From assembly GCF_016909495.1 (NCBI RefSeq), contig NZ_JAFBFW010000006.1:186001-250000 (forward strand): DNA of 64,000 nt, written 5' to 3'. How positions within the stretch are numbered: the first letter of the stretch is position 1; each line of letters starts with the position of its first letter. This DNA is from Pantoea coffeiphila. Its GTDB lineage: Bacteria > Pseudomonadota > Gammaproteobacteria > Enterobacterales > Enterobacteriaceae. The position numbers and the translations under genes are program-made. The notes beneath the pieces are model-generated. The model did not search any database. It worked only from the letters and a program-made list of their open reading frames with translations, and was not told the DNA's origin. This document shows positions 4,166 to 59,380 of this stretch, in pieces.

Positions 4166-4219
4166 AAGAGTGGGCCTCGTTGGTGATTAATATTACCTTC
4201 GGGGCTTTCTTCTTTTTAT
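4122..4219 (+). ncRNA. sok: Sok-like antisense RNA with its promoter, intact copy
   Basis: On the strand opposite hok, TTGCAT (4122-4127) and TACTCT (4145-4150) are 17 bp apart, a good sigma-70 promoter in the same position as the R1 sok promoter. The predicted transcript starts near 4157, covers the mok start, and contains GCCTCGTTGGTGATTAATAT and CGGGGCTTTCTTCTTTTTAT, which align with R1 Sok. In R1 this antitoxin RNA of about 65 nt binds hok mRNA and triggers RNase III cleavage. Ends are estimated. Confidence 0.65.
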
Positions 4220-4745
4220 CTCTCAACAACCTGTTACTGCCAGTTACCTGAGATAAAAAGCCTCAAGCACCGGGCGGGATTATACTTTAGTGCGTGAGTT
4301 ATTAAATTTGTTTCTGCGTACTATGCGTAAAATTGCGTACGATATCGCAATTTTCGTGTAATTAATTTGTTATTTCATCTGCGCATTAATCTGATGCTAT
4401 TAGTTAAGGTTGGCTTGTTATTTGTTTGTGTTATGTGATTTGGTTATTGGTTTTATAGAGATGGTTTTATTTTTATTAAGTTAATTAACTCAGTGATATT
4501 ATTAATCGCTGTAATCGATTAATATTACTTTCTCCAGCGACGACTATCGTAGATAGTCAAACTATCCACACTATTTTTCCTTGCCGGCATTCTGACCATT
4601 CCCTGGCGACATAAGATAAGAACTTTTGTTGCTCTGAAAAGGACGGGGCTATCAGCGTTCACTGATAGCCCCGTATTGTTGGTGCCGTCAGCTAAGCCCT
4701 GACGCATCATCCTGAAAACGGGGGATTGCTCCCCCGCCCAGGTCG

Positions 4746-4899
4746 CTACTTACCGGATTCGTAAGCCATGAATGCAGCCACCTCTTTGTCACCACTCTTC
4801 CAGCGTAATTCGCAAAGCGTCTCACGGGTAAAGTAGGTAAATATCAAAACGGTAATACAGAGTAATTAACACGATAGTGATTATGGGTGGTATTTTCAT
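4746..4899 (-). pseudogene. Frameshifted hok copy
   Basis: Aligned to the intact toxin at 3957-4109, this copy has one extra A (GAGTAATTAAC against GAGTATTAAC on the + strand). The frame therefore reads [17 protein letters not shown] and stops at codon 26, losing the Cys and the EVAAF tail. All other bases are nearly identical, so the inactivation looks recent. Confidence 0.85.
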
Positions 4900-4911
4900 C
4901 GCTCTTGCTCC

Positions 4912-5009
4912 TTGCATTACTGCGGGTAAGAGGCTACTCTGATGTTCTGTGGACATAGAGGATGCCTCGTTGGTGATTAACATTACCTTCGGGGCTTTCT
5001 TCTTTTTAT
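4912..5009 (+). ncRNA. Sok-like antisense RNA, second copy
   Basis: TTGCAT (4912-4917), 17-bp spacer, TACTCT (4935-4940), then a predicted transcript from about 4947 with GGACATAGAGGATGCCTCG and CGGGGCTTTCTTCTTTTTAT. It resembles R1 Sok at least as well as copy 1 does. The promoter and antisense body are intact although the toxin copy is broken, so this unit may express antitoxin only. Differences of a few bases from copy 1 decide whether it can act in trans. Confidence 0.55.
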
Positions 5010-5354
5010 CCCTTACAACCTGTTACTGCCAGTTACCTGAGATAAAAAGCCTCAAGCACCGGGCGGGATTATACTTCAGCGTATGAGTTATTAAATTTGT
5101 TTCTGTCCTCTATGCGTGAAATTGCGTACGGTATCGCAAACTTTATGTAATTATTTTTTGGTATTCATTTATTGGATTGGTATCGCTTTCGGGTTTGTAG
5201 TTAAACTTGTTATGCACCCTGTTCATTTGAGATGGTCATTAATTTAATTCGGCGTTTTCATGGGTGATAATTCAATTAACACAGGGGGGTTATTATCCCC
5301 TTTAACCTGTTCACGTTATTATTTCCTATTAGAAACCCAGAAATAAGCAAACCG

Positions 5355-41446: not shown

Positions 41447-41833
41447 ATGCAGCTGTCGCAGCGCATTGTCGTCGTTGATGACGAACGTTCCGTTCGCAGT
41501 GGGTTGAGTAACCTGCTCCAGTCGGAGGGATACTCAACCCGGATTTATGAGTCGGCGGAAACGCTGCTGGATGATGCCGATGCGTTGGCCGAGGCTGCGC
41601 TGTTTATCATTGATGTCAGGCTCAAAGGGATCAGCGGTTTTGAGCTGTTTATTGAACTTACCCGGCGCATTGAAAATCCGCCGGGTATTATTATTTCCGG
41701 CAACGGTGATGACAACACGTTGCGCTATGCCATCAGCCTCGGGGCCATCGCGTTTTTACCGAAGCCCATTGATATCGATACGCTACTTGATAGCGTGCGT
41801 CTGGCGCTGGCGACGGACAGGAGGTGCAGATGA
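41447..41833 (+). CDS. Receiver-only response regulator
   Basis: 128 residues, a single CheY/FixJ-type receiver: acidic pair Asp11/Asp12 (VVVDDERS), phospho-acceptor Asp56 (FIIDVRLKG), Ser84 (IIISGN) and Lys106 (FLPKPID). There is no output domain. Its TGA overlaps the ATG of the giant kinase gene (ATGA), so the two are made together. It could be a phosphate sink or modulator for that kinase. Confidence 0.9.
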   Translation: MQLSQRIVVVDDERSVRSGLSNLLQSEGYSTRIYESAETLLDDADALAEAALFIIDVRLKGISGFELFIELTRRIENPPGIIISGNGDDNTLRYAISLGAIAFLPKPIDIDTLLDSVRLALATDRRCR

Positions 41834-44800
41834 GTACACTGCCGGAGGCGCATCCTCCCTTTGAACCCGGCGCATTATCCCTGTCCGACGAGCTTATCAT
41901 CACCGCCCTGGCGCAGGAGGGAAACAGCGAATGGTTTTTATGCCGCCATCCCTCATCAGGCGAAAAGTGTGTTCTCACCACCGCCGCCAGCGAAGCCGCT
42001 CAGTTTCAGGTTTCACAACTGCTTAAAAATGAATATCTGCTGCGCGACAATCTCTCAACGCAGTGGGCGCTGAAGCCCTCTGCCCATACGCTGTACCACG
42101 GTCGCTATGCGCTGATTTACCCGGATTTCGCCTATCAGACGCTGGCCGATATGATGCGCGAGCAGCGGCCATCGCTGGAGAGCTTCCTGCACAGTGCCGC
42201 CATGCTGGCCGGTACGCTGGGGATGATGCACCAGCAGGGGCTGATCCACGGCGATATCAAACCGGCCCATTTTTTCGTTAGCGGAGAGGGCGGTTTCAGG
42301 CTCGGTGGTTTCGGCCTGTCCTGTTCTGCTTCGGAGGTGCTGCTACAAACCCAGCTGCCCGCATCGGGCGGTACACTGGCCTATATGTCCCCGGAGCACA
42401 CCACGCGCACCACCCAGCGGGTCAGCAGCCTGAGCGATCTCTACAGCCTCGGCATCGTGTTGTATGAGCTGCTGACCGGCAAACTGCCGTTTGGCGCGCC
42501 GGGAGCCGGGCATTCTGAGTGGGTGCATCACCATATTGCCTCCGAGCCGCTGCCCCCTGAACGGGTGCGTCACGATGTGCCCGCCGTGGTCTCGGCAATC
42601 GTTCTGCGTTTACTGTGTAAATCGCCGGAGCAGCGCTATCAAAGCGCCGAAGGGCTACAGGCCGATCTGCGCCGCTGCCTGTCGCTTATCACCCCCGACG
42701 GCCAGATTGAAGGCTTTGACCTCGGTTCACAGGATCTGCCACAGACCGGCCCGTCTTCGGATGTGATGTACTACGATCACCCGCAGGCACAAGAGGTGCT
42801 GGACGCATTTGAGCGGTTCAGCCACAGCGGCAAGCACAAGCTGGTGATGATTGGCGGTGCACTCGGTTCGGGGAAGACGTCGCTTATCGCTTCCGCCGCG
42901 AAAAAACTACAGCAGAAGAAACTGCTGCTGACGGTGGTGAAAGCCGATCGGCATTCGCCGATTCTGCCGCACGGTATCCTGATCTCCGCTATTCGCACGC
43001 TGACCCTGCAACTGATGGGACTGCCCGCGATGGATATCGCCCGCTGGCGCGCGCATTTTACCCGCCTGCTGGGTGACTACAGCGAACTGGCGATCCACTT
43101 TTTTCCCGAGCTGGGCGTATTGCTCAATCAGAAAGGCCACTTCGCGGTCGATATCCACTCGCTGGATGCCCGCGATCGTTTCAACACCATGGCCTGTAGC
43201 ATGATCAAAGCGTTTGCCACCCCCGGCAGGCCGCTGGTGATGATGATTGATGATATTCACTGGGCCGATCGCGCCAGCCTGGCACTGCTGCAAAACCTGC
43301 TCAGCCAGAGTGAAGATATCCCGCTGATGGTGGTAGTGAGCCACAAGGATTTCGCCACTTTGCCCTGCCAGACCATGCGCGGGCTGCTGACCACGCTGCG
43401 GGCATCGGCCGTGCGGGTCACCGACATTACGCCGCAGAGCCTGAGCATCAAACAGATTGCCCGTCGGCTGGCGGGCATGTTTCACGTGCGGGCCTCCGCC
43501 ACCTGCGAACTGGCGCGGGTAGTGCATGAAAAAACGGGCGGCAATCCGCTGTTTACTCAGGAGTTTATCCGCCAGGCCGTGCAGCACGGCTTAATCAGTC
43601 ACCGTAAATTCCCGCTGACCTGGCACTACGATCTCGATGCGATCAAGGCCTGCCAGTACAGTGAAAATGTTGCCAGTCTGGTCTTACAGCGCATGGAGAT
43701 TGTGCCGGAAATCACCCGGCGGGTGCTGAGCAGCCTGGCGTGCCTGGGCGGCTCCGGCGGGCTGACTCTGCCCGGCAAAGTATTGAATCTGACGCAGGAA
43801 GAGATCCGCATGCACCTGCTGCCGGCGGCGGTGGCGCAGCTGATTACCCTGCATCAGGATGACTATGCTTTTACTCACGATCGTGTGCATGAAGCGGCAA
43901 TCAACCTGATCGGTACGGATGAGAAAGATCGTCTTCACCTGCGTGCCGCCAGCCTGCTGGCGGAGCGGGCCAATGAGGATCTCAGCAACGATGCGCTGTT
44001 TCGGGTCGTGCATCATGTGGCTGCGATTAAAAACGCCGGGCTGCTTCGTCAGAGCGCGAGCCGATATCGCCAGCTGATCCTGCTGGCAACCCGGCGGGCA
44101 AAAAGCACCGGGGATTATGTTTCGGCGCTGCGATTTTTACAGGCCACCCAGCGAATGGATGCGCCGCTGACGGCGGAAGAAGATTTCACTTTTACCCTGG
44201 AAGCAGCGGAGTGCGAATTCTTGCACGGTAACCTGTCGACCGCGCAGGGCCACTGCACTAAGCTGCTCAGCGCACCGGGGAATCCTACCGATAAGGCGAT
44301 TGCCGCCTGCATGATGGCGGAAATCCATATGCGGCGGTCAGACAGCAAGCTGGCGCTGGAGACGGCAATTGCGTGGCTGGCGGTGTTCGGCATTCATCTG
44401 AACCGCGAGCCGGACAAAGCCGAGTGCGATGCCGCCCGCATCAAACTCAAGGAGCAGGTGGGTAAAAACCCCTATACCCGCCTCAGACCGCTGTCGCTGA
44501 TGACCTGCCGTAAAACCGAAGCGATCATGAATCTGATGGCCAGCGCCTGCATGTTCGCCGCGTTTGTCAGCCCGCGCCTGCACTTTATGATCGTCTGTAA
44601 GATGCTGCATCTGACTATGGACAAGGGAATGACCGGTGCCTCGACGTTTGCGCTTTCCTGGTATGGCGTGCTGTGCGGCGATCATTACAACGAATACAGC
44701 CGGGGATTTGCCAGCACGCTGCTGGCCCGCGAACTGGTCTATAAACACGATTTCACCAGCTTCAAGGCGCGGACGCTGCTGCCGCTGGACCAAGTCAGTA

Positions 44801-47412
44801 TCTGGACCATGCCAACCACCTATTCTATCGAATGTGCCAAAACCACCTTTGACACCGCCGTCGCCGTAGGGGATCGCACCTCGGCCTGCCTGGCCCTGCG
44901 CCATCTGGTGATGAACTATTTAACGCGCGGCGATCACCTCGAAGGGGTGCAGACTTCCATCGAGCGCGGCCTGGCGTATGTCAGCAAGGCACAGTATCGG
45001 GACGTTGAGGTAATTTTGCAGATGCAGCGCGACTACGTGCTGTTTCTGCGTTTCGCCGGGGATGAGCCGTTCTCCGGCAAAAACTTCACGCCGGTGCCCA
45101 TTTTGCAGATGAAACCGGGCACCGCCATTGAACCCCTTCTGCTGATGCAGTTCTGGTCGTGGCTATATCGCGGCATGGCGCACTTCTTCGCCGGGGAATA
45201 TGCCTGCGCCAGCGACTGCTTTGCCCAGGCCGCGCCGCTCACCGGTTCGATCCCCGGTCATATACACCGGCTTGATTTCCACCTCTACAGCGCGCTGTCG
45301 GTGACTATTCCGCTCACTTCACAGACCTGTACCGAGGAACACCGGCAGTTTGTCGCCGCACACTATGAAATGATTGCCACCTGGGCGGTTGAAAATCCGC
45401 GCACCTTTGCCGATAAAGCCGGGCTACTGCGCGCGGAAATGCTGCGGCTGGAGGGGGATTCACTGCAGGCCGCACAGCAGTACGAGCTGGCCATCACCCT
45501 GTCGCGCGAAGGCCGCTTTGACCATATCAACGGCCTGGCCTGCGAGCTGGCCGCTGGCTATGCCAGCACCTGTGGACTGAGCGTGGCGGCGGATGGCTAT
45601 ATCAAAGGGGCCATGGCGGCCTGGGAGCGCTGGGGTGCCGGGGCTAAAGTCAGACAGCTGGAGCTGCGCTATCCTCACCATGCCTCTTCCCAGCGCCACG
45701 CCGCCTTCAGCACGGTGTCGTTTGAGCAGAGTGCGGAACTGAGCGATTTGCAAAGCGTAATTACCGCGGTGCGGGCGCTAACCGAAGAGATTAACCTCGA
45801 CCGGCTGATCAACACGCTGATGATGATGCTGCTGGAAAGAGCAGGTGCACAGCACTGCCTGCTGATCCGCCTGCTGGACGGCAGCGTGCCGGAAATTGAG
45901 GCGCGGGCGGCCACCACCGCCGACGGTATTCGGGTGAAAATCGTGCAGGAAACACCGCTGGCTACGGATTTGCCGCTGTCGGTGCTGTCGGCGGTGATCC
46001 GTACCGGGCAGGAGATCCGCACCGGCAAACCGGAAGTGTTCAGTCCGTTCAGCCAGGACCCTTACCTGGTGGCTTCCGGCGCGGCGGTGATGTGCGTACC
46101 GATGTTTAAGCAGGCGCGTATGGTCGGGGTGCTGTATCTGGAAAACCGCCTGATGCCGGATGTGTTTACCGCCGAACATTCACGCGTGGTGTCGATGCTG
46201 GGCGCGCAGGCTGCCGTCTCACTGGAAACCGCGCGGCTGTATGCCGAGCTGATGGAGGAGAACGTTAACCGCCGTCGGGTTGAAAAACAGCTGCGCGCCA
46301 GCCAGACCTCGTTGATTATGGGTGAGAAAATCAGCCATACCGGCACCTGGCACTGGAATCTGGCAAAGGACCAGATGATGATTTCTGAAGAATATCGCCG
46401 CATTCTCGGCCTGCCACAGGAGCAAACCAGCCTGTCGATGGTGGAGTTTATGACTATGGTGCATCCCGACGACCATGGCTGCATTAGCGAGTTAGTCAGA
46501 GAAAGCGTGATTGACGGCGTCAGTATGCAGGCGGAATTTCGTATTATTCGCCGCGACGGCGAGTGCCGCTATATCAAGGGCATCGGCGATCCGGTCGAAA
46601 ATCTGCCCGACGTCAGCGAATATTTCGGCACCATTTCCGATATCACCTCGCAGCGCCTGGCTGAAGATGCCGTACGCATCGCGCAGGCCGATCTCGCCCG
46701 TGTCTCCCGTGCGACCACGGTCGGGCAGCTTACCGCCTCGATTGCTCACGAGATTAATCAGCCGCTGATGTCGATTGTGGCGAATGCCGGTGCCAGCATG
46801 CGCTGGATCAAACGCGGCCCCGAACATATCGACAACGCCTGCCACGGCCTGCAGGAAATTCTGAGTGAAGGGAAGCGCGCGGGGGACATTATTCGCGGGC
46901 TGCAGGCACTGACCCGCAATCAGCTCTCTGAGTTTGCTCCGGCAAAACTGCATCATCTTGCGCGGGATATTCTGTCGCTTTCGCGTATGGAGCTGGAACG
47001 GCGCTGGATCTCGCTGGATTTAGATTTGCGCGCGATGAATGACAACATTTACTGCGAGCGGGTACAGATCCAACAGGTGCTGCTGAACCTGGTGGTGAAT
47101 GCGATTGATGCGATGGTTGAAAAAGGTCGGGGTTCCAGCGTGCTGAAGCTGTCATCGTGTAATCCGACCCAGGATACGATTCTTTTCGAAGTAGCGGATA
47201 ACGGCACCGGTCTGTCGGATGAGGTGATACTGCGTATTTTCGACTCTTTTTACACCACCAAAAAAGAGGGAATGGGGATGGGACTGACCATCAGCGAAGG
47301 GATTATCAAAAGGCATAAGGGCGAACTGAAAGCGGAGAACCGCGCGGAAGGCGGCAGCCGGTTCTGGTTTACGCTGCCAACGGAAGCCGAAAGCCCACAT
47401 CCAGTTCCCTGA
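41830..47412 (+). CDS. Giant kinase-like / AAA-ATPase / GAF / PAS / sensor histidine kinase
   Basis: 1860 residues, start AGGAGG-TGCAG-ATG. In order: protein-kinase-like domain (about 20-285) with HGDIKP (His140, Asp142) but GFG instead of DFG at 160-162 and His for the Asn two residues after KPA; AAA_16/MalT-like ATPase with Walker A GGALGSGKT (342-350) and Walker B LVMMIDDIHWAD (Asp474/475); a long helical, TPR-like region (about 700-1270); GAF (about 1310-1470); PAS/PAC (about 1500-1610); HisKA with His1640 (IAHEINQPL); HATPase with Asn1757, Asp1790 in DNGTGL and GMGMGLTIS. No membrane helices, so cytoplasmic. Signal unknown. Confidence 0.9.
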   Translation: MSTLPEAHPPFEPGALSLSDELIITALAQEGNSEWFLCRHPSSGEKCVLTTAASEAAQFQVSQLLKNEYLLRDNLSTQWALKPSAHTLYHGRYALIYPDFAYQTLADMMREQRPSLESFLHSAAMLAGTLGMMHQQGLIHGDIKPAHFFVSGEGGFRLGGFGLSCSASEVLLQTQLPASGGTLAYMSPEHTTRTTQRVSSLSDLYSLGIVLYELLTGKLPFGAPGAGHSEWVHHHIASEPLPPERVRHDVPAVVSAIVLRLLCKSPEQRYQSAEGLQADLRRCLSLITPDGQIEGFDLGSQDLPQTGPSSDVMYYDHPQAQEVLDAFERFSHSGKHKLVMIGGALGSGKTSLIASAAKKLQQKKLLLTVVKADRHSPILPHGILISAIRTLTLQLMGLPAMDIARWRAHFTRLLGDYSELAIHFFPELGVLLNQKGHFAVDIHSLDARDRFNTMACSMIKAFATPGRPLVMMIDDIHWADRASLALLQNLLSQSEDIPLMVVVSHKDFATLPCQTMRGLLTTLRASAVRVTDITPQSLSIKQIARRLAGMFHVRASATCELARVVHEKTGGNPLFTQEFIRQAVQHGLISHRKFPLTWHYDLDAIKACQYSENVASLVLQRMEIVPEITRRVLSSLACLGGSGGLTLPGKVLNLTQEEIRMHLLPAAVAQLITLHQDDYAFTHDRVHEAAINLIGTDEKDRLHLRAASLLAERANEDLSNDALFRVVHHVAAIKNAGLLRQSASRYRQLILLATRRAKSTGDYVSALRFLQATQRMDAPLTAEEDFTFTLEAAECEFLHGNLSTAQGHCTKLLSAPGNPTDKAIAACMMAEIHMRRSDSKLALETAIAWLAVFGIHLNREPDKAECDAARIKLKEQVGKNPYTRLRPLSLMTCRKTEAIMNLMASACMFAAFVSPRLHFMIVCKMLHLTMDKGMTGASTFALSWYGVLCGDHYNEYSRGFASTLLARELVYKHDFTSFKARTLLPLDQVSIWTMPTTYSIECAKTTFDTAVAVGDRTSACLALRHLVMNYLTRGDHLEGVQTSIERGLAYVSKAQYRDVEVILQMQRDYVLFLRFAGDEPFSGKNFTPVPILQMKPGTAIEPLLLMQFWSWLYRGMAHFFAGEYACASDCFAQAAPLTGSIPGHIHRLDFHLYSALSVTIPLTSQTCTEEHRQFVAAHYEMIATWAVENPRTFADKAGLLRAEMLRLEGDSLQAAQQYELAITLSREGRFDHINGLACELAAGYASTCGLSVAADGYIKGAMAAWERWGAGAKVRQLELRYPHHASSQRHAAFSTVSFEQSAELSDLQSVITAVRALTEEINLDRLINTLMMMLLERAGAQHCLLIRLLDGSVPEIEARAATTADGIRVKIVQETPLATDLPLSVLSAVIRTGQEIRTGKPEVFSPFSQDPYLVASGAAVMCVPMFKQARMVGVLYLENRLMPDVFTAEHSRVVSMLGAQAAVSLETARLYAELMEENVNRRRVEKQLRASQTSLIMGEKISHTGTWHWNLAKDQMMISEEYRRILGLPQEQTSLSMVEFMTMVHPDDHGCISELVRESVIDGVSMQAEFRIIRRDGECRYIKGIGDPVENLPDVSEYFGTISDITSQRLAEDAVRIAQADLARVSRATTVGQLTASIAHEINQPLMSIVANAGASMRWIKRGPEHIDNACHGLQEILSEGKRAGDIIRGLQALTRNQLSEFAPAKLHHLARDILSLSRMELERRWISLDLDLRAMNDNIYCERVQIQQVLLNLVVNAIDAMVEKGRGSSVLKLSSCNPTQDTILFEVADNGTGLSDEVILRIFDSFYTTKKEGMGMGLTISEGIIKRHKGELKAENRAEGGSRFWFTLPTEAESPHPVP

Positions 47413-50105: not shown

Positions 50106-50759
50106 TTACGTTCGCGATAACCCCTCCCACTGCTCCGGGGTCAGCGTTTTCACATCAAACTGGTCGCGGGTGCGGCAATAGGTATTGCCGCCCATGCGGC
50201 CAATGGTATCCATCAGCTGCTGATCGATGTGCAGATTCTCGGGATTAACCGCATCGCTACGCACGTATACACCTACCACTTCCCCCAGAATGATTTCCCG
50301 TGCCGGGCCAACCTGCAGGGTGGTGTGGCGGCGGCACTCCAGCGCGGCCGGGGCGGAGAGAATGCGCGGGCTGCCAACCCGGCGACCCGCAACGGTGGCC
50401 AGCCCGGCTTCCTCCAGTTCATTCACCTCGGGGCCAAATTTGATCGCGCAGATCTCCATCTGACGCACCAGCGCATCATCGACGATATGCACGGTAAATT
50501 CGCCGGTTTCACGGATATTGCGTGCGGTATCCTTAAAACGCATGTCGCTGTAGTTTTCCACGCCGATGGCCACTATCGCCGGGTCGTGCGTCAGCACGTT
50601 AAAGAAGCTGAACGGCCCGGCGTTGGGTTTACCGTTTTTATCGACCGTGGTCACCAACGCAACGGGTCTGGGGATAACGGTACCGATCAGGATCTTATAG
50701 CGTTCCCGCTCGTTCAGTTCGGCAAAATCAAACCATGTATGATTTTCAGGCTGGCTCAT
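50106..50759 (-). CDS. Flavin reductase-like (FMN-binding split barrel) protein
   Basis: 217 residues from MSQPENHTWF with GGAG six bases upstream; the frame extends far upstream inside the M24 gene but that part is not plausible. RYKILIGTVIPRPVALVTTV, FSFFNVLTHDPAIVAIGVEN and GEFTVHIVDDALVRQMEICA are the flavin-binding core. Such proteins supply reduced flavin or bind FMN for an oxygenase. Last gene of the ABC-transporter operon, 1 bp after the M24 stop. Confidence 0.87.
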   Translation of the reverse strand: MSQPENHTWFDFAELNERERYKILIGTVIPRPVALVTTVDKNGKPNAGPFSFFNVLTHDPAIVAIGVENYSDMRFKDTARNIRETGEFTVHIVDDALVRQMEICAIKFGPEVNELEEAGLATVAGRRVGSPRILSAPAALECRRHTTLQVGPAREIILGEVVGVYVRSDAVNPENLHIDQQLMDTIGRMGGNTYCRTRDQFDVKTLTPEQWEGLSRT

Positions 50760-50760
50760 T

Positions 50761-52185
50761 TCAGACTCCGGCGCGAACGCGGTGGGTTTCCAGCTGGGTA
50801 TGGCGGCTGAGGTTCTCAAAACCGTCCTCGGTGACAACGTAACAGTCGCCAATATTACACCCTGCCGACAGCGGCTCCAGCCACTGCGTATGCAGAACAA
50901 ACACCATGCCGGTTTCCAGCCGATCGTAGTTGTGCGATGAGATATTGAAGCTGTTTTGCCCGCCCGCCATACCGACCGAATGACCGAGATTCGGATTGTG
51001 CGGGCCGTGGGTTGCCGGGTAAACATGCATCAGCTTACGCCCCTGGGCTTCCCAGTCGACATCGCGCACGTACTGCTGCGGGATCAGCCGCGCCTCGCCG
51101 TCCGGCATCGCAGACCAGTTGTAGGGCATGGTGCGCGCTTCGGCATCGTTCAGCATGCCCTGCTCAATCATTGGGCCGAAGGCGGCATTGTTGATATCGC
51201 GCATCAATGCACCGGGCTTAATCAGCCGCTCGGCGCGCTTCACACCTTCGGTACAGGCCGCCAGCACGATTTCCTGGCGCTCGGTAATGTCACCCACAGC
51301 AATCATGCGCGCCGTTTGTGCGGTATAGCCACGCCAGGTGACGTTAGAGATATAGAGGTTGATCAAATCTCCCGGACGTACGACGTGTCCGTAGGGCTTG
51401 CCGCAGTGCGTACCAAATTCGTTAATGCCAATCTGATAGCCGTCACCGGTTTCGCCACCAAAGGCCATTTGCGCGGCGGTAAAGGCGGCAAAAATTTCAT
51501 GATCGGTGACGCCCGGTTTTGCCACGTGATACGCCGCCTGGGTGCCGATACTGATTAACTGTGCGGCCGCTCGGAACATCTCGATTTCACGCGGGGAGCG
51601 AATTTTTTGCAGGCGGTCGAGAATCGGGTTATCGCTGATAAAGCGACAGCCGGGCATTAAGGTGTGCAGCGCGGCCTGGAAGGTCAGCGATGTCCGATCG
51701 CCAATTTCCCCAATCTGCGCCTTGTTCAGGCCGAGGCGGGCGAGGATGTCCGCGCATTTCTCTGCGGTTTTCAGGACGGCATCACCGGGGCGATCGGCAT
51801 ACTCGCGGCCAATCGGCCCAATCTGCCAGATATCTTCAACCAGCAGCGGTTCGCCCGCTGGCGGCAGCAGCACCGACTGCGTGAAGAAGGAGAGCAGAGT
51901 CAGCGGCTTGTCGGCGTCGGTAGGAATAATCAGTACCCCTTCGCGCATCCAGTCGCAAATGTAGCGCAGGTAAGCGTTGGACGCATGAAACCAGCCGACG
52001 CTGCCCGCATGGACGACAAGCGCATCGTGACCGGCTTCTACCGCCTGGCGGCGGATGCGCCGCAGGCGCTCGGCGAACTCGGCTTCCGGCAAAGGCAGCG
52101 GCGCCGAAAAGGTGAAGTCCGGCTGGAAATCGGCCAGCAGAGAGCCGATGCGATAGCCCGCCGACGCGGTCGCATGAGTATGCAT
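50761..52185 (-). CDS. M24-fold hydrolase (aminopeptidase P/creatinase family) with degenerate metal site
   Basis: 474 residues from MHTHATAS after AAGGAACTATT. Creatinase N-domain (about 40-190) and pita-bread domain (about 210-455). In the pita-bread part the usual ligand positions read INLYISN (first Asp lost), GYTAQTARM (second Asp is Gln), GHSVGM (His kept), LHTQWLEP (Glu) and NIGDCYVV (last Glu is Gly). So most of the five metal ligands are gone, as in metal-free creatinase. A hydrolase of small amides or amidines fits its place behind an ABC transporter. True peptidase activity is doubtful. Confidence 0.82.
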   Translation of the reverse strand: MHTHATASAGYRIGSLLADFQPDFTFSAPLPLPEAEFAERLRRIRRQAVEAGHDALVVHAGSVGWFHASNAYLRYICDWMREGVLIIPTDADKPLTLLSFFTQSVLLPPAGEPLLVEDIWQIGPIGREYADRPGDAVLKTAEKCADILARLGLNKAQIGEIGDRTSLTFQAALHTLMPGCRFISDNPILDRLQKIRSPREIEMFRAAAQLISIGTQAAYHVAKPGVTDHEIFAAFTAAQMAFGGETGDGYQIGINEFGTHCGKPYGHVVRPGDLINLYISNVTWRGYTAQTARMIAVGDITERQEIVLAACTEGVKRAERLIKPGALMRDINNAAFGPMIEQGMLNDAEARTMPYNWSAMPDGEARLIPQQYVRDVDWEAQGRKLMHVYPATHGPHNPNLGHSVGMAGGQNSFNISSHNYDRLETGMVFVLHTQWLEPLSAGCNIGDCYVVTEDGFENLSRHTQLETHRVRAGV

Positions 52186-52210
52186 AATAGTTCCTTGTGA
52201 AATCAGTCGA

Positions 52211-53035
52211 TCAGTGATTTTGCGGTCGCGGAGCCAGCACCCGGCGAGCGACCAGTAATCCCAACAGGGTGAGGCCAATCAATATCCCGGAGATCGCCGC
52301 CACGCGGACGTCCAGTGATTCTTCAATCAGCGCAAACATTCGCAGCGGCAGTACCGTGGTACTGGCGTCCGCGAGGAAAAGTGACACCGTGACGTTATCC
52401 AGCGACTGGATAAACACCAGAAACGCACCGGCCAGAATGCCGGGCATCAGCAGCGGCAGCGTGACGCGGCGCAGCGTCATAAACCAGCTGGCACCCATGG
52501 TAGTTGATGCCTCGGCCAGCGACGGGTTCATCCCCTGAGCCACCACCGAGGCAGCGCGATACATCAGCGGGCCAAACACCACGATATGACCGGTGACCGT
52601 CAGCCAGAGCGAAGGCTGGAAGCCGACAAAATTAGCGACAATCAGCGCGGCCAGCCCGTAAACCAGGCTCGGCATGACCAGCGGCGCAAGCAGCAGGGGT
52701 TCAATGCTGTTCACGCTTTTCCGCGTCATACGGGTCATTCCAATGGTGGCCGGCACCGCAAACAGCAGCGATCCCGCCACCGCCAGAGCGGCAATTTTCA
52801 GCGAATTGCCCGCCGCGATATGCTCGGTTGCGGAGCGAACCGGGTCCAGCAGCGCTTCATACCAGCGCAGTGAAAACCCTTCCGGCGGGTATTTCAGCGT
52901 CTGACCGGCGGTGAAGGACATCATCAGTGCGATAACGATCGGCGCGATCAGATAGATCAGGCAGAGTACGCCAAAACCGTAGACAAACACCTTGTAAAGC
53001 AGCGCTGGAACAGGATTCTCGCGAAAATTAAGCAT
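52211..53035 (-). CDS. ABC transporter permease (PotC-like)
   Basis: 274 residues, six helices, with the EAA loop in MNPSLAEASTTMGASWFMTL, RRVTLPLLMPG that contacts the ATPase. PotC/YdcV-type permease of the polyamine/opine family. Its start overlaps the preceding permease by 8 bp. Inner membrane. Confidence 0.9.
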   Translation of the reverse strand: MLNFRENPVPALLYKVFVYGFGVLCLIYLIAPIVIALMMSFTAGQTLKYPPEGFSLRWYEALLDPVRSATEHIAAGNSLKIAALAVAGSLLFAVPATIGMTRMTRKSVNSIEPLLLAPLVMPSLVYGLAALIVANFVGFQPSLWLTVTGHIVVFGPLMYRAASVVAQGMNPSLAEASTTMGASWFMTLRRVTLPLLMPGILAGAFLVFIQSLDNVTVSLFLADASTTVLPLRMFALIEESLDVRVAAISGILIGLTLLGLLVARRVLAPRPQNH

Positions 53036-53855
53036 GACCGTTCAGCCTCCTGTGGCGTGAAATCATGGAGAGGGCAACCAGTAAACAGCCGGTGGACAGC
53101 AGCAGCACAACCGCAATCGCCGAGGCCAGCGGCCAGTCAAACAGCGTGCCGACTTCACGATAGATCAGCTGCGGAACGTAGACGTTGCGTGCCCCACCGA
53201 TCACCGCCTGGGTGACGAACGAGCTGCTGGTGCTGGCAATCACCAGTATCCAGCCTGCCAGCAGACCCGGCAGCATGACGGGCAGCATCACGGTAATCAG
53301 AATGCGCCACGGACCGGCACCGGAAACCTGTGCGGCTTCGGTCAGTGAGTAAGGCGTGCGGGTCAGAATGGCAATCAGCGGCAGCAGGATCAGCGGCAGA
53401 TCGATCTGACACATCGCCATCACCAGCCCCAGCTCGGTAAACATCAGGCTGGTGGGCGTGCCGGTGATCCCCAGCGCCATCAACGCATCGCTGATCGGCC
53501 CCTGGCGGCCCAGGATGACGATCCACGCGAATGTACGCACCACGTTGCTGGTCAGCATCGGGATTAGCGTCAGGAAGATAATCATCTGCCGAATCGTGCG
53601 CCCGCTGTGCCAGTAAAGCAGGGCAATCGGCAGGCCCAGCAGGGTGGTGCCGATGGCCGTCTCCAGCCCCAGTCGGGCGGTGTTCACCAGTACGCGAAAG
53701 TTAAAGGCATCGCCAAAAAATCGCGCGTAGTGTTCAAGGGTAAGCCCGCCGGGGTGGATAAAGCTGAATCCGATCAGTACAACGAGCGGCACGGCAAAAA
53801 ACAGCACCGACAGCACCAGCATCGGAACAATATAAGGAAAGCCGCTCTGCTTCAT
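53028..53855 (-). CDS. ABC transporter permease (PotB-like)
   Basis: 275 residues, six helices; EAA loop in LTEAAQVSGAGPWRILITVM, LPVMLPG. PotB/YdcU-type. Pairs with the PotC-like protein to form the channel. Begins 9 bp after the binding-protein stop. Confidence 0.9.
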   Translation of the reverse strand: MKQSGFPYIVPMLVLSVLFFAVPLVVLIGFSFIHPGGLTLEHYARFFGDAFNFRVLVNTARLGLETAIGTTLLGLPIALLYWHSGRTIRQMIIFLTLIPMLTSNVVRTFAWIVILGRQGPISDALMALGITGTPTSLMFTELGLVMAMCQIDLPLILLPLIAILTRTPYSLTEAAQVSGAGPWRILITVMLPVMLPGLLAGWILVIASTSSSFVTQAVIGGARNVYVPQLIYREVGTLFDWPLASAIAVVLLLSTGCLLVALSMISRHRRLNGHA

Positions 53856-53864
53856 TTCGTCACC

Positions 53865-54914
53865 TCAGCCTGCAACAAGGGTGTCAAATTCGCGTATCCA
53901 GGCATCGCGATTTTTGTTGATGCTGTCCCAGTCGGGATAGACCAGCGTTTTCAGCTGCTCGCGAGTGACATAGGCGGCGATCTCCGGCGTCAGTGCGACT
54001 TCGCTGTTGGTGGGGAACATTTCGGCCGGCGGCAGCTTGAACCGGTCTTGTGCCGCCTGCGAGATGGCGGCATCCATATAGGCATAGACCGCATCGGCAT
54101 TGCGGCTGCCGCTGGCAAGATGAATGTTGACCGGGGCGGCCGGGGAACCACTCTCCGGGTGAACAAACTCCGCGTTCATCCCCAGACTTTTCAGGCGCGC
54201 CACGTTGCCGGTACTGCACATAAACACCGCGATTTCGCCCTGCTGGAACAGCGTCATCTGATGGTTGGTGCTGTCGACGATGTTTTTCATCTGCTCGGGA
54301 TATTTGCGGAACAGGTCGAACACCGCTTTCATATCGTCCGGGCCGCTGCCGTAGAGTTTGGCGATTTCCGTGTAGGCCATCACTGCGGTGTTGGAAGCAA
54401 AACCGGTCCAGGACACCAGCCCTTTGTAAGCCGGATTTTCAAACAGATCTTTATAGCCACGCGGACGCGGCACCAAATCCGGGTTATAGGCAATACCGTT
54501 CACTTCCACCGTGACCGTAGGCCCGTACTCGCCCTGAAAATCAGGGGCGATCAGGTGCCAGTTTTTCAGCCGGGTCGGATCGATTTTCTGGATCAGATTA
54601 TTTTGTACCGCGACGGTCATCTGCCCCGGTGACATCAGCAGCGCGTCGTAGGAGGGATTTCCCCGACTCGCCATCACTTTTGCCAGCTGATCCTGCGCCA
54701 TCGCCGGGGCGATAGTCAGTCCGTAGCCCTCTTTTTGCAGCATCGGCGTGAGGACGGTGCGATAGGCATCCTCCCAGGTTCCGGGGAAGGTCGCCGCTAC
54801 CGCGCGGCCTTTATCGGCAGCCATCGCGCGCAGTGAAACGGGTAACATTGCGGCGGCGGCGGAGCCTGCCAGTAGCTGACCAAACCGACGACGACTGATT
54901 GGGAAATCTTTCAT
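53865..54914 (-). CDS. ABC transporter periplasmic substrate-binding protein with Tat signal
   Basis: 349 residues. The signal FPISRRRFGQLLAGSAAAAM has the twin-arginine motif SRRRFG, so export in folded form through Tat is expected. The mature protein (GTWEDAYRTVLTPMLQKEGY, RPRGYKDLFENPAYKGLVSW) is a PotD/IdiA-type class II binding protein for polyamines, opines or similar cationic organics. Substrate unknown. Confidence 0.88.
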   Translation of the reverse strand: MKDFPISRRRFGQLLAGSAAAAMLPVSLRAMAADKGRAVAATFPGTWEDAYRTVLTPMLQKEGYGLTIAPAMAQDQLAKVMASRGNPSYDALLMSPGQMTVAVQNNLIQKIDPTRLKNWHLIAPDFQGEYGPTVTVEVNGIAYNPDLVPRPRGYKDLFENPAYKGLVSWTGFASNTAVMAYTEIAKLYGSGPDDMKAVFDLFRKYPEQMKNIVDSTNHQMTLFQQGEIAVFMCSTGNVARLKSLGMNAEFVHPESGSPAAPVNIHLASGSRNADAVYAYMDAAISQAAQDRFKLPPAEMFPTNSEVALTPEIAAYVTREQLKTLVYPDWDSINKNRDAWIREFDTLVAG

Positions 54915-54937: not shown

Positions 54938-56044
54938 TCAGGGTTGCGGTTCAGCCGGGAAGGCGTGACAGCGTGTGGTATCAATGTCGGCAAAGAGTGA
55001 CGTGCCGGGTAACGGGGCCGCTGTGCCGGGGCGGCGGACCTCAGAGGCGCGCAGGCTGCTGCCGCAGTCCAGTTTCAGTTCATGAAGCAGCACCGGGCCG
55101 AGCGGCACGGAAACGGTGACCGTCACCTTCTGGCTGTTCTCGCCGGGCTGAGGTAGCAGACGCACTTCCTCCGGACGACAGGTCAGGGTCACTTTTGATC
55201 CAGGGGTAAAGCTGAGACGGCGCGGCAGGCGCAGCGTGGTATTGTCCGCCAGGCCGACCAGCGTGGTGTCATCGTCAAAACGCAGTACGGTGGCAGGCAG
55301 CTGATTGGCCTGGCCAATAAAAGTATTCACAAACAGCGAGCGCGGCCGGTCGTAAACAGCCATGGGCGTATCGATCTGCTCAACGTGGCCTTTGTTCATC
55401 AGCACCAGGCGATTGGCCAGACTCTGCGCCTCTTCCTGGTCGTGGGTGACGATCAGCGTGGTAATACCCAGCGTTTTTTGCAGATGCAGCAGCTCCACCT
55501 GTAAATCAAAGCGCAGGGCGCGATCCAGTGCGCCAAACGGTTCATCGAGCAGAAGCAGAGAAGGGCGACCGGCAATCGCACGAGCAACCGCCACCCGCTG
55601 CTGCTGGCCACCCGACAGTTCACGCGGCAGACGATTGCCGAATTCACCGAGGCGCACCATCGCCAGCATCTCTTCAACCCGCTTCTGTCGTGCCGGGCGG
55701 GAAATCTGCTGACACGCCAGCGGATAGGCAATATTTTCCGCAACGGTCAGGTGCGGGAACAGCGCATAGTTCTGGAAAACCATACCGATGCCGCGCGCTC
55801 TGGCGGATAACGACGCAAGATCGTCATCCCCCAACACGATTTTTCCTGCCTTAGGCTGGATCAGTCCGGCGATCGCCCGCAGCACCGTTGATTTGCCGCA
55901 GCCGCTTGGCCCTAAAAGCGCAACGACTTCTCCGGGTTCGATAGTGAAGGAGATATCGTTTATCGCATTACTGCCGCCGTAGCTGTGAGTCAGGCCCTGC
56001 ACGCTCAGGCGCTTGCGTAAGGACATGGATTGCATTTCTGCCAT
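54938..56044 (-). CDS. ABC transporter ATP-binding protein (PotA/FbpC-like)
   Basis: 368 residues. Walker A LLGPSGCGKSTVL near residue 43, signature LSGGQQQRVAVARA, Walker B LLLLDEPFGALDRAL, switch His in LIVTHDQEEAQ, and a C-terminal TOBE domain (VTLTCRPEEVRLL). First gene of a six-gene operon (ATPase, binding protein, two permeases, M24 hydrolase, flavin reductase). GGGAAGCACT precedes the ATG. A sigma-54-type promoter lies 57-72 bp upstream. Confidence 0.9.
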   Translation of the reverse strand: MAEMQSMSLRKRLSVQGLTHSYGGSNAINDISFTIEPGEVVALLGPSGCGKSTVLRAIAGLIQPKAGKIVLGDDDLASLSARARGIGMVFQNYALFPHLTVAENIAYPLACQQISRPARQKRVEEMLAMVRLGEFGNRLPRELSGGQQQRVAVARAIAGRPSLLLLDEPFGALDRALRFDLQVELLHLQKTLGITTLIVTHDQEEAQSLANRLVLMNKGHVEQIDTPMAVYDRPRSLFVNTFIGQANQLPATVLRFDDDTTLVGLADNTTLRLPRRLSFTPGSKVTLTCRPEEVRLLPQPGENSQKVTVTVSVPLGPVLLHELKLDCGSSLRASEVRRPGTAAPLPGTSLFADIDTTRCHAFPAEPQP

Positions 56045-56100
56045 AGTGCTTCCCAGGTTGAAGGTGCTGAAAAAAGCCAGGAACGATGTATCAGGGAGAT

Positions 56101-56116
56101 AGCAAGCGATGTGCCA
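56101..56116 (-). promoter_or_regulatory. Sigma-54 (-24/-12) promoter of the ABC-transporter operon
   Basis: On the - strand TGGCAC-ATCGC-TTGCT: an exact TGGCAC-N5-TTGCW match with GG and GC ten bases apart. Transcription would begin near 56089, giving a leader of about 45 nt before the ATG at 56044. Such promoters need an enhancer-binding protein bound upstream. Confidence 0.8.
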
Positions 56117-56255
56117 GATTGAATGAAAGAATGAGTTTTGTTTTTAAAATCATGAAATTAAATGAAAATAAATTTAAAATATAAATTCGCACAAAGTTTC
56201 GCATAAATGTGAATCTTTAATTAATCCTGTTTTGACTCATCAATGCTGTTCACGG

Positions 56256-56284
56256 TGGTGCAAAATCATCCTCATATTGGTGCA
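56256..56284. promoter_or_regulatory. Two TGGTGCA half-sites 22 bp apart, NtrC-like enhancer candidate
   Basis: TGGTGCA at 56256-56262 and again at 56278-56284, two helical turns apart. TGGTGCA is the NtrC half-site (consensus TGCACCA-N3-TGGTGCA). The left arms are poor, so these are half or weak sites. They lie between the two divergent sigma-54 promoters, about 140 bp and 230 bp from them, within enhancer range of both. The rest of the 522-bp gap is AT-rich and holds no gene. Confidence 0.45.
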
Positions 56285-56511
56285 TTCGTATGCGCTTAGG
56301 GAGAGCGGCCGGAAGAAGTAAGAGCTGTAAAATCTGGCGGTTGTGATGAATTATTAAATTAAATCATTGAGATAGATGCATGTCTTGCTTTTCACTGTCA
56401 TTAATATCTATGTAACCAAAATTAATAATTAACTTTCGAATATAGTTAAAACAAAATTTAATTATATAAATTTTATTTAAAATCAGTTTATTAGGTTGGT
56501 TTTTCCTTTTA

Positions 56512-56527
56512 TGGCACATGATTTGCA
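56512..56527 (+). promoter_or_regulatory. Sigma-54 (-24/-12) promoter of the isomerase-GntR-LysR operon
   Basis: TGGCAC-ATGAT-TTGCA, an exact match to TGGCAC-N5-TTGCW with GG-N10-GC spacing. Predicted start near 56538, 29 bp before the GTG start at 56567. Mirror-placed to the sigma-54 promoter at 56101-56116 on the other strand. Confidence 0.8.
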
Positions 56528-56566
56528 CTCTCTCTGAGCGTTGCTAACTATCAAAAGGAAAGAGTC

Positions 56567-57670
56567 GTGAGATTAGGTATCGATGGGTTGAAGCTGCCCG
56601 AAGTGAAAAAGCGCGGCGCGCTGGCCAGTCTGGATCATGTCAAGTCTCTGGGGCTGGGCGGGGTCTTCTTCAGTACGCTGCTGGATATGAGCCCTACGCT
56701 GGATCGCGGTGCGCTGCGGGAACTGCGCAGCAGGGCCGACGAGCTGGATCTTTACCTGGAAGCCGGACTCGGAAAAATTAATCCGTTCTGCAATGCCGAA
56801 GTGCCTGAACTGCGTGCCGCAGGCGGCGGTGACATTATTGCAGGCCTGAGCCGGATGATTGAGGCCGGCGCTGAAATTGGCTGCCGTGAACTGTGGGTTT
56901 CCACCGGGAACTTTAAACCGCAGTTTACCGGGCGCTTTGCGGTTGATCGCTTCCGCACCGACGTCAGCTGGGAAGATCAGCTGCTGGCCACGGAGAAAGT
57001 GCTGCGTTTGCTGGCTCCCGTGGCGCGGGCGCACGGTGTGCATATGAATATCGAAACCCATGACGAGATTACCTCATTTGAGATCCTGCGATTGATCGAG
57101 GCAGTAGGTGAGGATTGCGTTGGCGTAGTGCTCGACACCGCGAACATGCTGCAGCGGGGCGAACATCCGCTGCTGGCGGCACGCAGGCTGGCACCCTGGG
57201 TACGGCAAACCCACATTAAGGACGCCTACGTTGGCCGCGCGCCGGGCGGGCTGGACTTCCAGCCGCGCCCATGCGGTAGCGGTATCGTGGATTTTTCCCC
57301 GATTCTGGCCCTGCTGGCCGGGGTGAATCCGCAGATTAATCTGTCGCTTGAAATTGCTCAGTCCTGCGAGGATAAGCCGCGCCAGGCCTGGCCACGGCAG
57401 TGTATTCAGATAGACGATCCGCTGTGGCGTGCAGGCCATCCGGACCTCAACGAACAGGAGCTGGATGCCTATTTCACCCTGCTGGATGCCTTTGAGCAGC
57501 GGGTTGCCGCCGGAGAGATTGCCGACTGGGAGAGCTATGAACGCGCGCACTATGGCTATCCCAGCTATCAGCATCAACCCTACGGTTACACGCAGACCGT
57601 AGGCTTTATTCAGCAATCCGCCGATCATATCCGCGCACTCTGCGCTGCACAGGGCATCGATTTAAGGTAA
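56567..57670 (+). CDS. Sugar phosphate isomerase/epimerase-like TIM barrel protein
   Basis: 367 residues, GTG start after AAAAGGAAAGAGTC. AP-endonuclease-2-type TIM barrel with metal-site residues in the strand ends: YLEAGLGKINPF, NIETHDEITSFE (Glu, His, Asp), VVLDTANML, THIKDAY and NLSLEIAQS. Members include xylose-isomerase-like epimerases and inosose dehydratases. Substrate unknown. First gene of a sigma-54-driven unit with GntR and LysR regulators, divergent from the ABC/M24 operon, so it may act on the same imported compound. Confidence 0.85.
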   Translation: MRLGIDGLKLPEVKKRGALASLDHVKSLGLGGVFFSTLLDMSPTLDRGALRELRSRADELDLYLEAGLGKINPFCNAEVPELRAAGGGDIIAGLSRMIEAGAEIGCRELWVSTGNFKPQFTGRFAVDRFRTDVSWEDQLLATEKVLRLLAPVARAHGVHMNIETHDEITSFEILRLIEAVGEDCVGVVLDTANMLQRGEHPLLAARRLAPWVRQTHIKDAYVGRAPGGLDFQPRPCGSGIVDFSPILALLAGVNPQINLSLEIAQSCEDKPRQAWPRQCIQIDDPLWRAGHPDLNEQELDAYFTLLDAFEQRVAAGEIADWESYERAHYGYPSYQHQPYGYTQTVGFIQQSADHIRALCAAQGIDLR

Positions 57671-57742
57671 AAGTTGCGCAGGAATTTAATTACAGAGATA
57701 GTGAAGCAACCGTCTGAATTCAGGTGTGAACAGGGAGAAAAC

Positions 57743-58468
57743 ATGAAAAAGCCGCGCGGCCGTCCTGCGGCAGCCGATAAAAGCGCCGACAGCCATGATG
57801 ATGTCTCTGAGCGGATACGCATTACGCTGGCGAAAGCCATCAGCGAGGGGGCATTAAAACCGGGCAGCAAAATTCTGGAAGAGGCGATTGCCGATCACTT
57901 CGGCGTCAGCCGTACCGTGGTTCGTGGTGCGCTGGGCGTACTGGAGAGCGATCACCTGCTGGAGCGCAAACGCAATCGCGGCACTTTTGTGGCTGAACCA
58001 GGCATTGAGGAAGCGCGCAGCCTGTTTGAGGCCCGCCGCAAGCTGGAAGGTATTTTACTTGAGCTGGTGGCCGCAAGAGTCACTGCTGCCGAGCTGGAAT
58101 CGCTGGAAAAACTGGCTGACGAGGAAGAACGGGTTCATCAGCACGGTGACGAGAAATCGCGTGCCGTGCAGTCCGGACAGTTCCACATCGCACTGGCGGA
58201 CCTTGCGCACAATGCGGTGCTGACTGAAGTCCTGGCGAAAATTGTTGCCCGCCTGTCGCTGGTGATGTCGCTGTATGAGGATCATCGCCATGACGACTGT
58301 GGCGCGGATCATCACCGGATGATTGTTCAGGCTCTGAAGGATAACAATCTGCAGCAGGCCCGGCAGCTGATGGAGCACCATCTGGCCGATATCGAAAGCC
58401 GCGTCAAGCTGACGACCGGGCAGGGCGATCGCCATTCGTTTATCTCCGTGCTGGAGAATTTTTCCTGA
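57743..58468 (+). CDS. GntR-family regulator, FCD subfamily
   Basis: 241 residues from ATG after GGGAGAAAAC; the frame is open further upstream without a better start. A basic N-terminal arm (KKPRGRPAAADKSADS) resembling an AT-hook precedes the winged helix (ITLAKAISEGALKPGSKILE, FGVSRTVVRGALGVLESDHL). FCD domain residues in EARRKLEGILLELV, FHIALADLAHNAVL and DHHRMIVQALKDNN. 72 bp after the isomerase gene and 3 bp before the LysR gene. Probably represses this catabolic island. Confidence 0.85.
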   Translation: MKKPRGRPAAADKSADSHDDVSERIRITLAKAISEGALKPGSKILEEAIADHFGVSRTVVRGALGVLESDHLLERKRNRGTFVAEPGIEEARSLFEARRKLEGILLELVAARVTAAELESLEKLADEEERVHQHGDEKSRAVQSGQFHIALADLAHNAVLTEVLAKIVARLSLVMSLYEDHRHDDCGADHHRMIVQALKDNNLQQARQLMEHHLADIESRVKLTTGQGDRHSFISVLENFS

Positions 58469-58471
58469 CCG

Positions 58472-59380
58472 ATGAAAATTCCTGATTTAAATCTGATTAT
58501 TGCGCTGGATGCGCTGCTGGACGAGGGTTCGGTGATTGGTGCCGCGCGCAGAATGAACCTCAGCCCGCCGGCGATGAGCCGCACCCTGACCCGTATCCGG
58601 CATCAGCTGGGCGACCCGATTCTGGTTAAGTCGGGGCGGAAAATGGTGCCCACACCCCGGGCGCTGGCGCTCAGGGACGAAGTCCATCAGGTGATGGGTG
58701 AGGCGATTCGCCTGCTTCAGCCGCAGTCGGGGGTGGATTTATCCCAGCTGGAGCGCACCTTCACGCTGCACGCCAACGATGTGTTTATCAGCGCGTTTGG
58801 CGGCGTGCTGCTCAGCCGCCTGAGGCAGGAGGCGGTCAATGTCAGCCTGCGCTTTACCCCGGAAAACGGCAGCGATGAAGACAGCCTGCGCGACGGCAAG
58901 GTGGATCTGTATATCAGCGCGATGCGACCGCTGGGTGACGATATCCACGTGCAGTCGCTGTTTTCCACCCATTTTATGGGGCTGGCGCGAGAGGATCATC
59001 CGATTTTCGCCAGCGAGATCACTCCGGAATCCTTTGCCCGCTACGAGCAGATCAGCGTGTCGCGTCGCGGGCGCGCGCGGGGGCCGATCGACAAACGCCT
59101 GGCGGAGCTGGGGCTGGTGCGCCACATCTCGCTGGTGGTGCCGACCTTCCATTCGGGAGTGTTTTCGCTGGGGAACTCCGATCTGATCCTGCCGCTGCCG
59201 GGCCACGTGGTCCGCGCGGTGCAGGAGATGGGGATTAAAACGCGGGCCTTTCCGCTGCCGGTGGAGCTGGATGCCATTCCTATCGTGCAGGCCTGGCATC
59301 CGCGATTCCAGAACGATCCCGCCCATCAGTGGCTGCGGCGGACTATTCACCAACTCTGTATTCAATCCGATGGGGCGTAA
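58472..59380 (+). CDS. LysR-family regulator, NodD/YbeF-like branch
   Basis: 302 residues. HTH LNLIIALDALLDEGSVIGAA with RRMNLSPPAMSRTLTRIRHQ; PILVKSGRKMVPTPRALALR follows. Effector domain (FTLHANDVFISAFGGVLLSR, DLYISAMRPLGDDIHVQSLF). The opening DLNLIIALDALLDEGSV is the branch that includes NodD/LeuO-type proteins. Only 3 bp after the GntR stop, so the two regulators are co-transcribed with the isomerase. Confidence 0.87.
   Translation: MKIPDLNLIIALDALLDEGSVIGAARRMNLSPPAMSRTLTRIRHQLGDPILVKSGRKMVPTPRALALRDEVHQVMGEAIRLLQPQSGVDLSQLERTFTLHANDVFISAFGGVLLSRLRQEAVNVSLRFTPENGSDEDSLRDGKVDLYISAMRPLGDDIHVQSLFSTHFMGLAREDHPIFASEITPESFARYEQISVSRRGRARGPIDKRLAELGLVRHISLVVPTFHSGVFSLGNSDLILPLPGHVVRAVQEMGIKTRAFPLPVELDAIPIVQAWHPRFQNDPAHQWLRRTIHQLCIQSDGA

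Follow-up and report, generated by a model that had tools for sequence, protein, structure and literature searches.

A conserved intergenic region of Pantoea coffeiphila with predicted divergent sigma-54 promoters, a predicted NtrC enhancer and 12-bp-spaced TTCGAA-like repeats

We analysed a stretch of 64,000 nucleotides from Pantoea coffeiphila (contig NZ_JAFBFW010000006.1, positions 186,001 to 250,000; hereafter the window), in which a conserved 522-base gap separates two divergent gene groups: a leftward operon for an ABC transporter, an M24-family protein and a flavin reductase-like protein, and a rightward operon for a sugar-phosphate-isomerase-like protein and a GntR/FCD regulator. Judged from its sequence, this gap probably switches both gene groups on together in nitrogen shortage, and regularly spaced repeats within it suggest input from a second, local regulator. 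The reading that we favour, and hold to be reasonably likely, is that NtrC at a single enhancer drives sigma-54 promoters at both ends of the gap while the GntR protein, bound to repeat units inside the intervening DNA loops, hinders this activation, such that expression would need both nitrogen shortage and the substrate. No paper on this operon or on the TTCGAA-like motif was found in the literature collection searched, other libraries lying outside its coverage.

Predicted outward-facing sigma-54 promoters at both ends of the gap

The two predicted promoters are as follows.

56101..56116, minus strand: sigma-54 promoter of the leftward operon, TGGCACATCGCTTGCT; exact consensus match, kept in 18/18 enterobacterial loci
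56512..56527, plus strand: sigma-54 promoter of the rightward operon, TGGCACATGATTTGCA; exact consensus match, kept in 18/18 enterobacterial loci

The first-pass annotation had placed exact matches to TGGCAC-N5-TTGCW on both strands at these positions, just upstream of the first genes, and had considered such an outward pair unlikely to arise by chance. All of this was borne out. The minus-strand site lies 56 bases from the start codon at 56044 and the plus-strand site 39 bases from that at 56567. They are the only two matches in the window (shuffle mean 0.11, with two or more in 1 of 100 shuffles), and the 5.74-Mb genome holds 21 matches against 5 for the pattern written backwards. When the gap itself (522 bp, G+C 0.33) was subjected to 20,000 dinucleotide shuffles, any exact match appeared in 9 of them and one per strand in none. 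The genome also encodes the matching sigma factor, with one Sigma54_DBD gene (rpoN; E = 5.5e-71).

The promoter pair is conserved. A search with the isomerase through 60 relatives and the GTDB genome collection (68 loci) found orthologous loci in Erwinia, Pantoea, Tatumella, Rouxiella and Rahnella, and both outward sites are present in all 18 of the enterobacterial loci examined, at 10–11 of 11 consensus positions; L023 and L025 were left out, being on the same contigs as L066 and L068. The 16-locus set used for the gap statistics below further drops L027 (the same as L071) and L070 (a second copy in the assembly of L069). The exact TGGCAC at both promoters is shared only with Erwinia sp. JUb26, the other enterobacterial loci having TGGCAT on at least one side. 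In the Erwinia aphidicola assembly (L069 and L070) the operon occurs twice, with equal scores and on two contigs, by duplication or as an assembly artefact.

A further 54 loci lie outside the enterobacteria, and 49 of them can be compared (three have the ATPase gene on the other strand and two have none). With minimum matches of 10 of 11 positions for the left site and 9 for the right, both divergent sites were found in 44 of the 49, mostly rhizobial, with the outer promoter edges 443–470 bp apart in 43 of these 44. Caballeronia and four Rhodobacterales make up the five loci without both sites. Where rhizobial loci were read gene by gene, an amino-acid ABC transporter is inserted between the right promoter and the isomerase gene.

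That the sites resemble promoters merely by coincidence is barely credible. Consensus matches are not proof, and the backwards pattern does have its genomic matches, but a chance origin is rejected by the window, genome and shuffle counts, and the pair is conserved across Enterobacterales and rhizobia. This conservation is stronger evidence for promoters than the shuffle statistics.

A predicted NtrC enhancer shared by the two promoters

Between the promoters lies a pair of tandem sites.

56246..56284, no strand assigned: predicted NtrC enhancer; 17-bp sites 56246-56262 and 56268-56284, each with TGGTGCA at its end, 22 bp apart

The TGGTGCA half-sites begin at 56256 and 56278, as had been noted at the outset, and are in direct orientation, 22 bp apart, with weak left dyad halves; at least two copies of TGGTGCA/TGCACCA turned up in 25 of the 20,000 shuffled gaps. 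The arrangement is retained across the 16 enterobacterial loci, where TGGTGCR half-sites are spaced by 22 bp in 15 and by 21 bp in L072, which has a degenerate TAGTGCG. The tandem centre is 162–168 bp from the left promoter edge in 16/16 and 152–316 bp from the right promoter. The earlier suggestion that NtrC-type sites stand within range of both promoters is thus backed by conservation. Measured against the dyad TGCACC-N5-GGTGCA, the right halves are retained in all 16 loci (one degenerate) and the left halves are weak. Ahead of the aligned TGGTGCA, which is the second site except in four Rahnella loci, where it is the first, position -8 is C in 15/16, position -5 is C in 14 and position -4 is A in 15; judged from this alignment, the left halves are weak yet non-random. 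With a matrix derived from 9 target sites of E. coli NtrC, 12 of the 16 loci exceed shuffles at p<0.05.

The genome encodes an NtrC that is 94% identical to the E. coli protein over 469 residues, with a single difference in the last 40. A TGGTGC or GCACCA half is found upstream of 8 of the 10 NtrC-linked E. coli genes compared, the exceptions being argT, which has no half-site, and rutA, which has TGCACT only. At nac in this genome (product 74% identical to E. coli Nac), half-sites are found at -168 and -146 relative to the sigma-54 site, and those of the left promoter occupy the same two positions.

Another NtrC-like activator might bind the half-sites instead. Their left dyad partners are degenerate, half-sites alone do not identify the protein that binds them, and the genome contains 15 sigma-54-activator matches, 12 of them strong and none on the window's contig. 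Against these points stand the halves at most of the E. coli NtrC-linked genes and the identical half-site positions at nac here, and we consider this alternative quite improbable. Control of both operons by NtrC and sigma-54, in line with the nitrogen- or effector-controlled joint expression that the first-pass annotation had predicted, appears well supported by the sequence, drawing on the promoters, their conservation, the half-sites, the nac layout and the presence of rpoN and NtrC genes.

A different possibility is that the shared enhancer drives the ABC-side promoter only and that the isomerase promoter is driven separately. The enhancer keeps a fixed distance to the left promoter and a variable one to the right, as this would have it. 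Enhancers, however, work across variable distances, and the right promoter is kept in every enterobacterial locus examined, often with a repeat unit of its own (see below) at the matching distance. We regard the one-sided arrangement as doubtful.

Three further loci in this genome resemble parts of the system. About 10 kb past the right end of the window, L017 (G000:C6:260385) has an exact sigma-54 site with TGGTGCA at -151 and is a possible NtrC target. A second tandem pair, of TGGTGCG, lies at C2:464577 directly downstream of a sigma-54-like site; no open reading frame was found there, and an Rfam search of that locus (L006) gave no named RNA. At L011 (G000:C4:543089) a sigma-54 site is found by the GlmY RNA, with a gene for a response-regulator-type sigma-54 activator, which we take to be GlrR, about 3 kb away; this locus serves as a positive control for the promoter pattern.

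Repeat units spaced by 12 bp flank the predicted enhancer

Short units with a period of 12 bp occur near each promoter. They are new here, having been absent from the first-pass annotation.

56186..56203, no strand assigned: left array, predicted GntR operator; two TTCGCA units, at 56186 and 56198 (spacing 12 bp)
56435..56440, no strand assigned: right arm, predicted GntR operator; one exact TTCGAA, 87 bp from the rightward promoter edge

In enterobacteria and rhizobia alike, TTCGAA, TGCGAA or TTCGCA is found about 86, 98, 110 and 122 bp from the outer promoter edges, in mirror-wise fashion. Exact units lie 70–125 bp out on both arms in 11/16 enterobacterial and 33/44 rhizobial gaps. Unit spacings between 6 and 60 bp are multiples of 12 for 27 of 37 pairs in the 16 enterobacterial loci (shuffled mean 0.05) and for 86 of 88 in 43 rhizobial loci (shuffled mean 0.44). 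Near-exact triplets were found at 76 places in the 1.375 Mb searched, and 73 of these are between the ATPase and isomerase genes (49 of 68 loci). The other three are in L086, L123 and L110 (at 20794), the last apparently by chance.

The arrays tend to go together with the GntR gene, which is present in 64 of the 68 GTDB loci: exact adjacent unit pairs occur in 44 of the 64 loci with the gene and in none of the 4 without it. The SRTVVRGAL segment of the protein is identical in 14/14 loci compared. Four Rhodobacterales loci have arrays beside a GntR gene (three clear, that of L121 degenerate) and, up to 300 bp from the array positions, no sigma-54 site scoring above 9 of 11; their GntR proteins are 38–41% identical to that of the window and have the same SRTVVRGAL helix. 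Gene order is altered in Caballeronia (L086) and Kaistia (L123); there the array and a sigma-54 site are separated by 105 and 116 bp, so the persistence of arrays without sigma-54 rests on the four Rhodobacterales loci only. The simplest reading of this association is that the units are operators of the operon's own GntR protein, positioned inside the enhancer loops.

The units could alternatively bind a different sigma-54 activator encoded elsewhere and no local repressor, the NtrC-type sites then being a secondary input in enterobacteria. Their placement would suit this, being like that of the usual upstream activator sites of sigma-54 promoters, at around 70–150 bp upstream (excerpt of PMC3844500), as would their occurrence in rhizobia, where NtrC-like sites were not found, and the 105–116 bp that still separate array and sigma-54 site in the rearranged Caballeronia and Kaistia loci. 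But arrays persist at Rhodobacterales loci that have no nearby sigma-54 site above 9 of 11 positions, and exact pairs are missing from all four loci that lack the GntR gene. Moreover, comparing 11 of the 12 strong genomic activator matches (L061 was left out) with 74 loci, flanks of up to 10 kb included, revealed no complete gene for a sigma-54 activator close to the operon. Matches came from two of these loci only, one of 117 aa at the edge of L066, where it is cut off, and one of 111 aa in L107. We judge this explanation unlikely and continue to prefer GntR as the protein that would bind the units.

Other motifs were sought in the gaps. A gapped-motif search of 34 rhizobial gaps recovered chiefly the array words, and exact IHF sites occur in 3/16 enterobacterial (shuffled mean 1.2) and 10/43 rhizobial gaps (shuffled mean 2.3). 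A genome-wide search for the NtrC dyad in R. johnstonii gave 31 matches against 26 for the reversed pattern.

A proposed two-input switch

Combining these elements, we propose that nitrogen limitation would load phosphorylated NtrC onto the tandem sites at 56246-56284, from where it would loop the DNA and activate sigma-54 polymerase waiting at both promoters. The left output would be the uptake and catabolic operon, and the right output the isomerase together with the GntR regulator. GntR on the TTCGAA-like units between the enhancer and each promoter would hinder looping or activation until released by its ligand, and both operons would then require nitrogen shortage as well as substrate. 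That they fire with nitrogen shortage plus GntR ligand is proposed because of the analogy with built enhancers and with nac, glnAp2 and hut (see below). The promoters, tandem sites, units, conservation, geometry and the rpoN, NtrC and GntR genes are features of the sequence, from which protein binding, the sign of GntR action, looping and the substrate are inferred.

Several points weigh against this proposal. Binding, looping and expression of the region are all deduced from sequence, and the related loci that show conservation are not independent of each other. The highest-scoring NtrC-type 17-mer of the window has p=0.075 when 200 shuffles are used and 0.033 with 60, and site A scores just 1.0 bit on the NtrC matrix. 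The nac gene of E. coli has a single TGGTGC at another distance; because its layout differs, the matching nac layout is seen in this genome only, among the 21 sites looked at. NtrC-like sites were not found in the rhizobial loci, with 6/43 at p<0.05 and a mean best score of 4.3 against 3.7 for shuffled sequence; since rhizobia have the promoters and arrays but showed no NtrC-like site, NtrC does not belong to the invariant part of the module. As for the units, exact ones number just two in the left arm and one in the right arm of the gap in the window. Exact units are restricted to one arm in 5/16 enterobacterial and 10/44 rhizobial gaps and are missing from one rhizobial gap, no exact adjacent pair exists in 20 of the 64 GntR-bearing loci, and TGGTGCGAA occurs in 5/16 enterobacterial gaps, where a counted unit overlaps the NtrC half-site. 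The link to GntR is itself one of association.

Were the proposal true, an uncharacterised catabolic operon of Erwinia, Pantoea, Tatumella, Rouxiella, Rahnella, rhizobia and agrobacteria would be linked to nitrogen shortage, and its substrate could be sought under that condition.

Genes of the two operons

The predicted genes are listed from left to right.

50106..50759, minus strand: flavin reductase-like protein (Flavin_Reduct; Pfam 2.8e-30), last leftward gene; start set at MSQPENH, 50759
50761..52278, minus strand: M24-family protein (Pfam 4.2e-24; prolidase alignment; motifs across 8 orthologs)
52211..53035, minus strand: ABC transporter permease Perm2 (Pfam BPD_transp_1; PotC/PhnV-like, under cut-offs)
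53028..53855, minus strand: ABC transporter permease Perm1 (PotB/PotH-like, under cut-offs)
53865..54914, minus strand: solute-binding protein (Pfam SBP_bac_8 2.6e-18; weak PhnS similarity)
54938..56044, minus strand: ABC ATPase (Pfam ABC_tran 4.5e-40), first leftward gene
56567..57670, plus strand: sugar-phosphate-isomerase-like TIM-barrel protein (Pfam AP_endonuc_2 8.3e-26), GTG start, first rightward gene
57674..58468, plus strand: GntR/FCD regulator (Pfam FCD 4.9e-19, GntR 1.9e-15)

The leftward operon would serve uptake and catabolism of a compound that probably contains nitrogen. In NCBIfam the resemblances are all below threshold, those of the transporter genes being mainly to polyamine and 2-aminoethylphosphonate systems. 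The closest solved structures to the flavin reductase-like protein are a 2-nitrobenzoate nitroreductase and component B of NTA monooxygenase. When the M24 protein, whose true start is likely to be at about 52185, is aligned with prolidase, the D, D, E and E positions of the latter, presumably metal ligands, become Y, Q, H and G, and the motifs YTAQTAR and HTQWLEP are retained in the 8 orthologs printed. The protein is probably a metal-free, creatinase-like hydrolase. The true start of the GntR/FCD regulator is likely to be 57743.

A LysR gene follows at 58472-59380 (plus strand). Its close relative is found at just one other of the loci compared, that of Erwinia sp. JUb26 (the sequence of L024 and L026 reaches just ~1.5 kb beyond the isomerase), and for this reason we place LysR outside the conserved unit and reject it as a member. 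In Tatumella (L067) a distant LysR, 28% identical, lies on the opposite strand. The first-pass annotation had predicted joint control of the ABC/M24 and isomerase/GntR/LysR genes; conservation supports this for the ABC/M24 and isomerase/GntR groups, and the LysR part does not stand.

Probable movement between bacterial classes

The operon and its promoters seem to have passed from one bacterial class to another, a conclusion drawn from sequence identity, tree placement and plasmid copies. This genome and R. johnstonii 3841 share ~70% identity in the isomerase and 45% in NtrC. In a tree with midpoint rooting for drawing only, all 16 isomerases of enterobacteria fall into a single group (support 99/95; 98% of 200 bootstrap trees), which adjoins Caballeronia and sits among the rhizobial ones. 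On plasmids, the isomerase matches 86 records, 49 of them covering at least 80%, mostly from Rhizobium and Agrobacterium among the matches listed, and the complete operon is present on the two plasmids that were opened.

A wider and tentative reading, which we would not expect to hold, is that a mobile two-armed module of mirror-image promoters and units moved between classes as a single piece, its enterobacterial version having at its centre an NtrC enhancer that is missing from the rhizobial copies. In its boldest form, GntR-bound units would replace the enhancer in rhizobia, such that a GntR-type protein, itself not a sigma-54 ATPase, might help an unanchored activator.

Other features of the window

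Rfam identified two sok-type antitoxin RNAs at 4107-4272 and 4897-5061 (minus strand). An open frame of 1862 aa at 41824-47412 (plus strand) resembles, by eye, a fusion of a kinase-type sensor protein with a histidine kinase.

Comparison with known systems

The rut operon of E. coli allows uracil to be used as a nitrogen source under NtrC control. Upstream of rutA there is a sigma-54-like site with weak NtrC-like dyads, and the operon includes rutF, an FMN reductase gene; the other enzymes differ, however, and there is no divergent sigma-54 pair as far as examined. At the nac promoter of this genome the half-sites are at -168/-146, as at the left promoter here, but nac has one promoter (and in E. 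coli one half-site), whereas the present gap has two facing apart, with units predicted to bind GntR.

HutC of Pseudomonas is a member of the GntR family. According to excerpts of PMC12977541, the sigma-54 hut promoter is a target of this local repressor as well as of NtrC, and the NtrC consensus GCACCA-N3-TGGTGC given there fits the half-sites of the window. The same excerpts show HutC protection overlapping the sigma-54 site, at a TGTA-N2-TACA sequence, whereas the units here are upstream and TTCGAA-like.

The proposed mechanism also has counterparts in built enhancers in which proteins placed between NtrC sites and a sigma-54 promoter can quench or raise activation (PMC4740811). They share with the present gap a tandem of NtrC sites, a sigma-54 promoter and, inside the loop, sites for a further protein, but were made by hand with LacI, TetR or TraR sites (PMC4740811); the present gap would be a natural, two-armed version. 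In-loop repression at NtrC-sigma-54 enhancers has been studied in built enhancers and reported for a few natural promoters; K. aerogenes nac and E. coli glnAp2 are cited as natural repression cases, and the Nac sigma-54 promoter as one where a repressor binds between activator and promoter (PMC4740811). If our reading is correct, the gap described here would be a natural two-promoter case of in-loop repression, with dozens of homologues across which its geometry can be compared.

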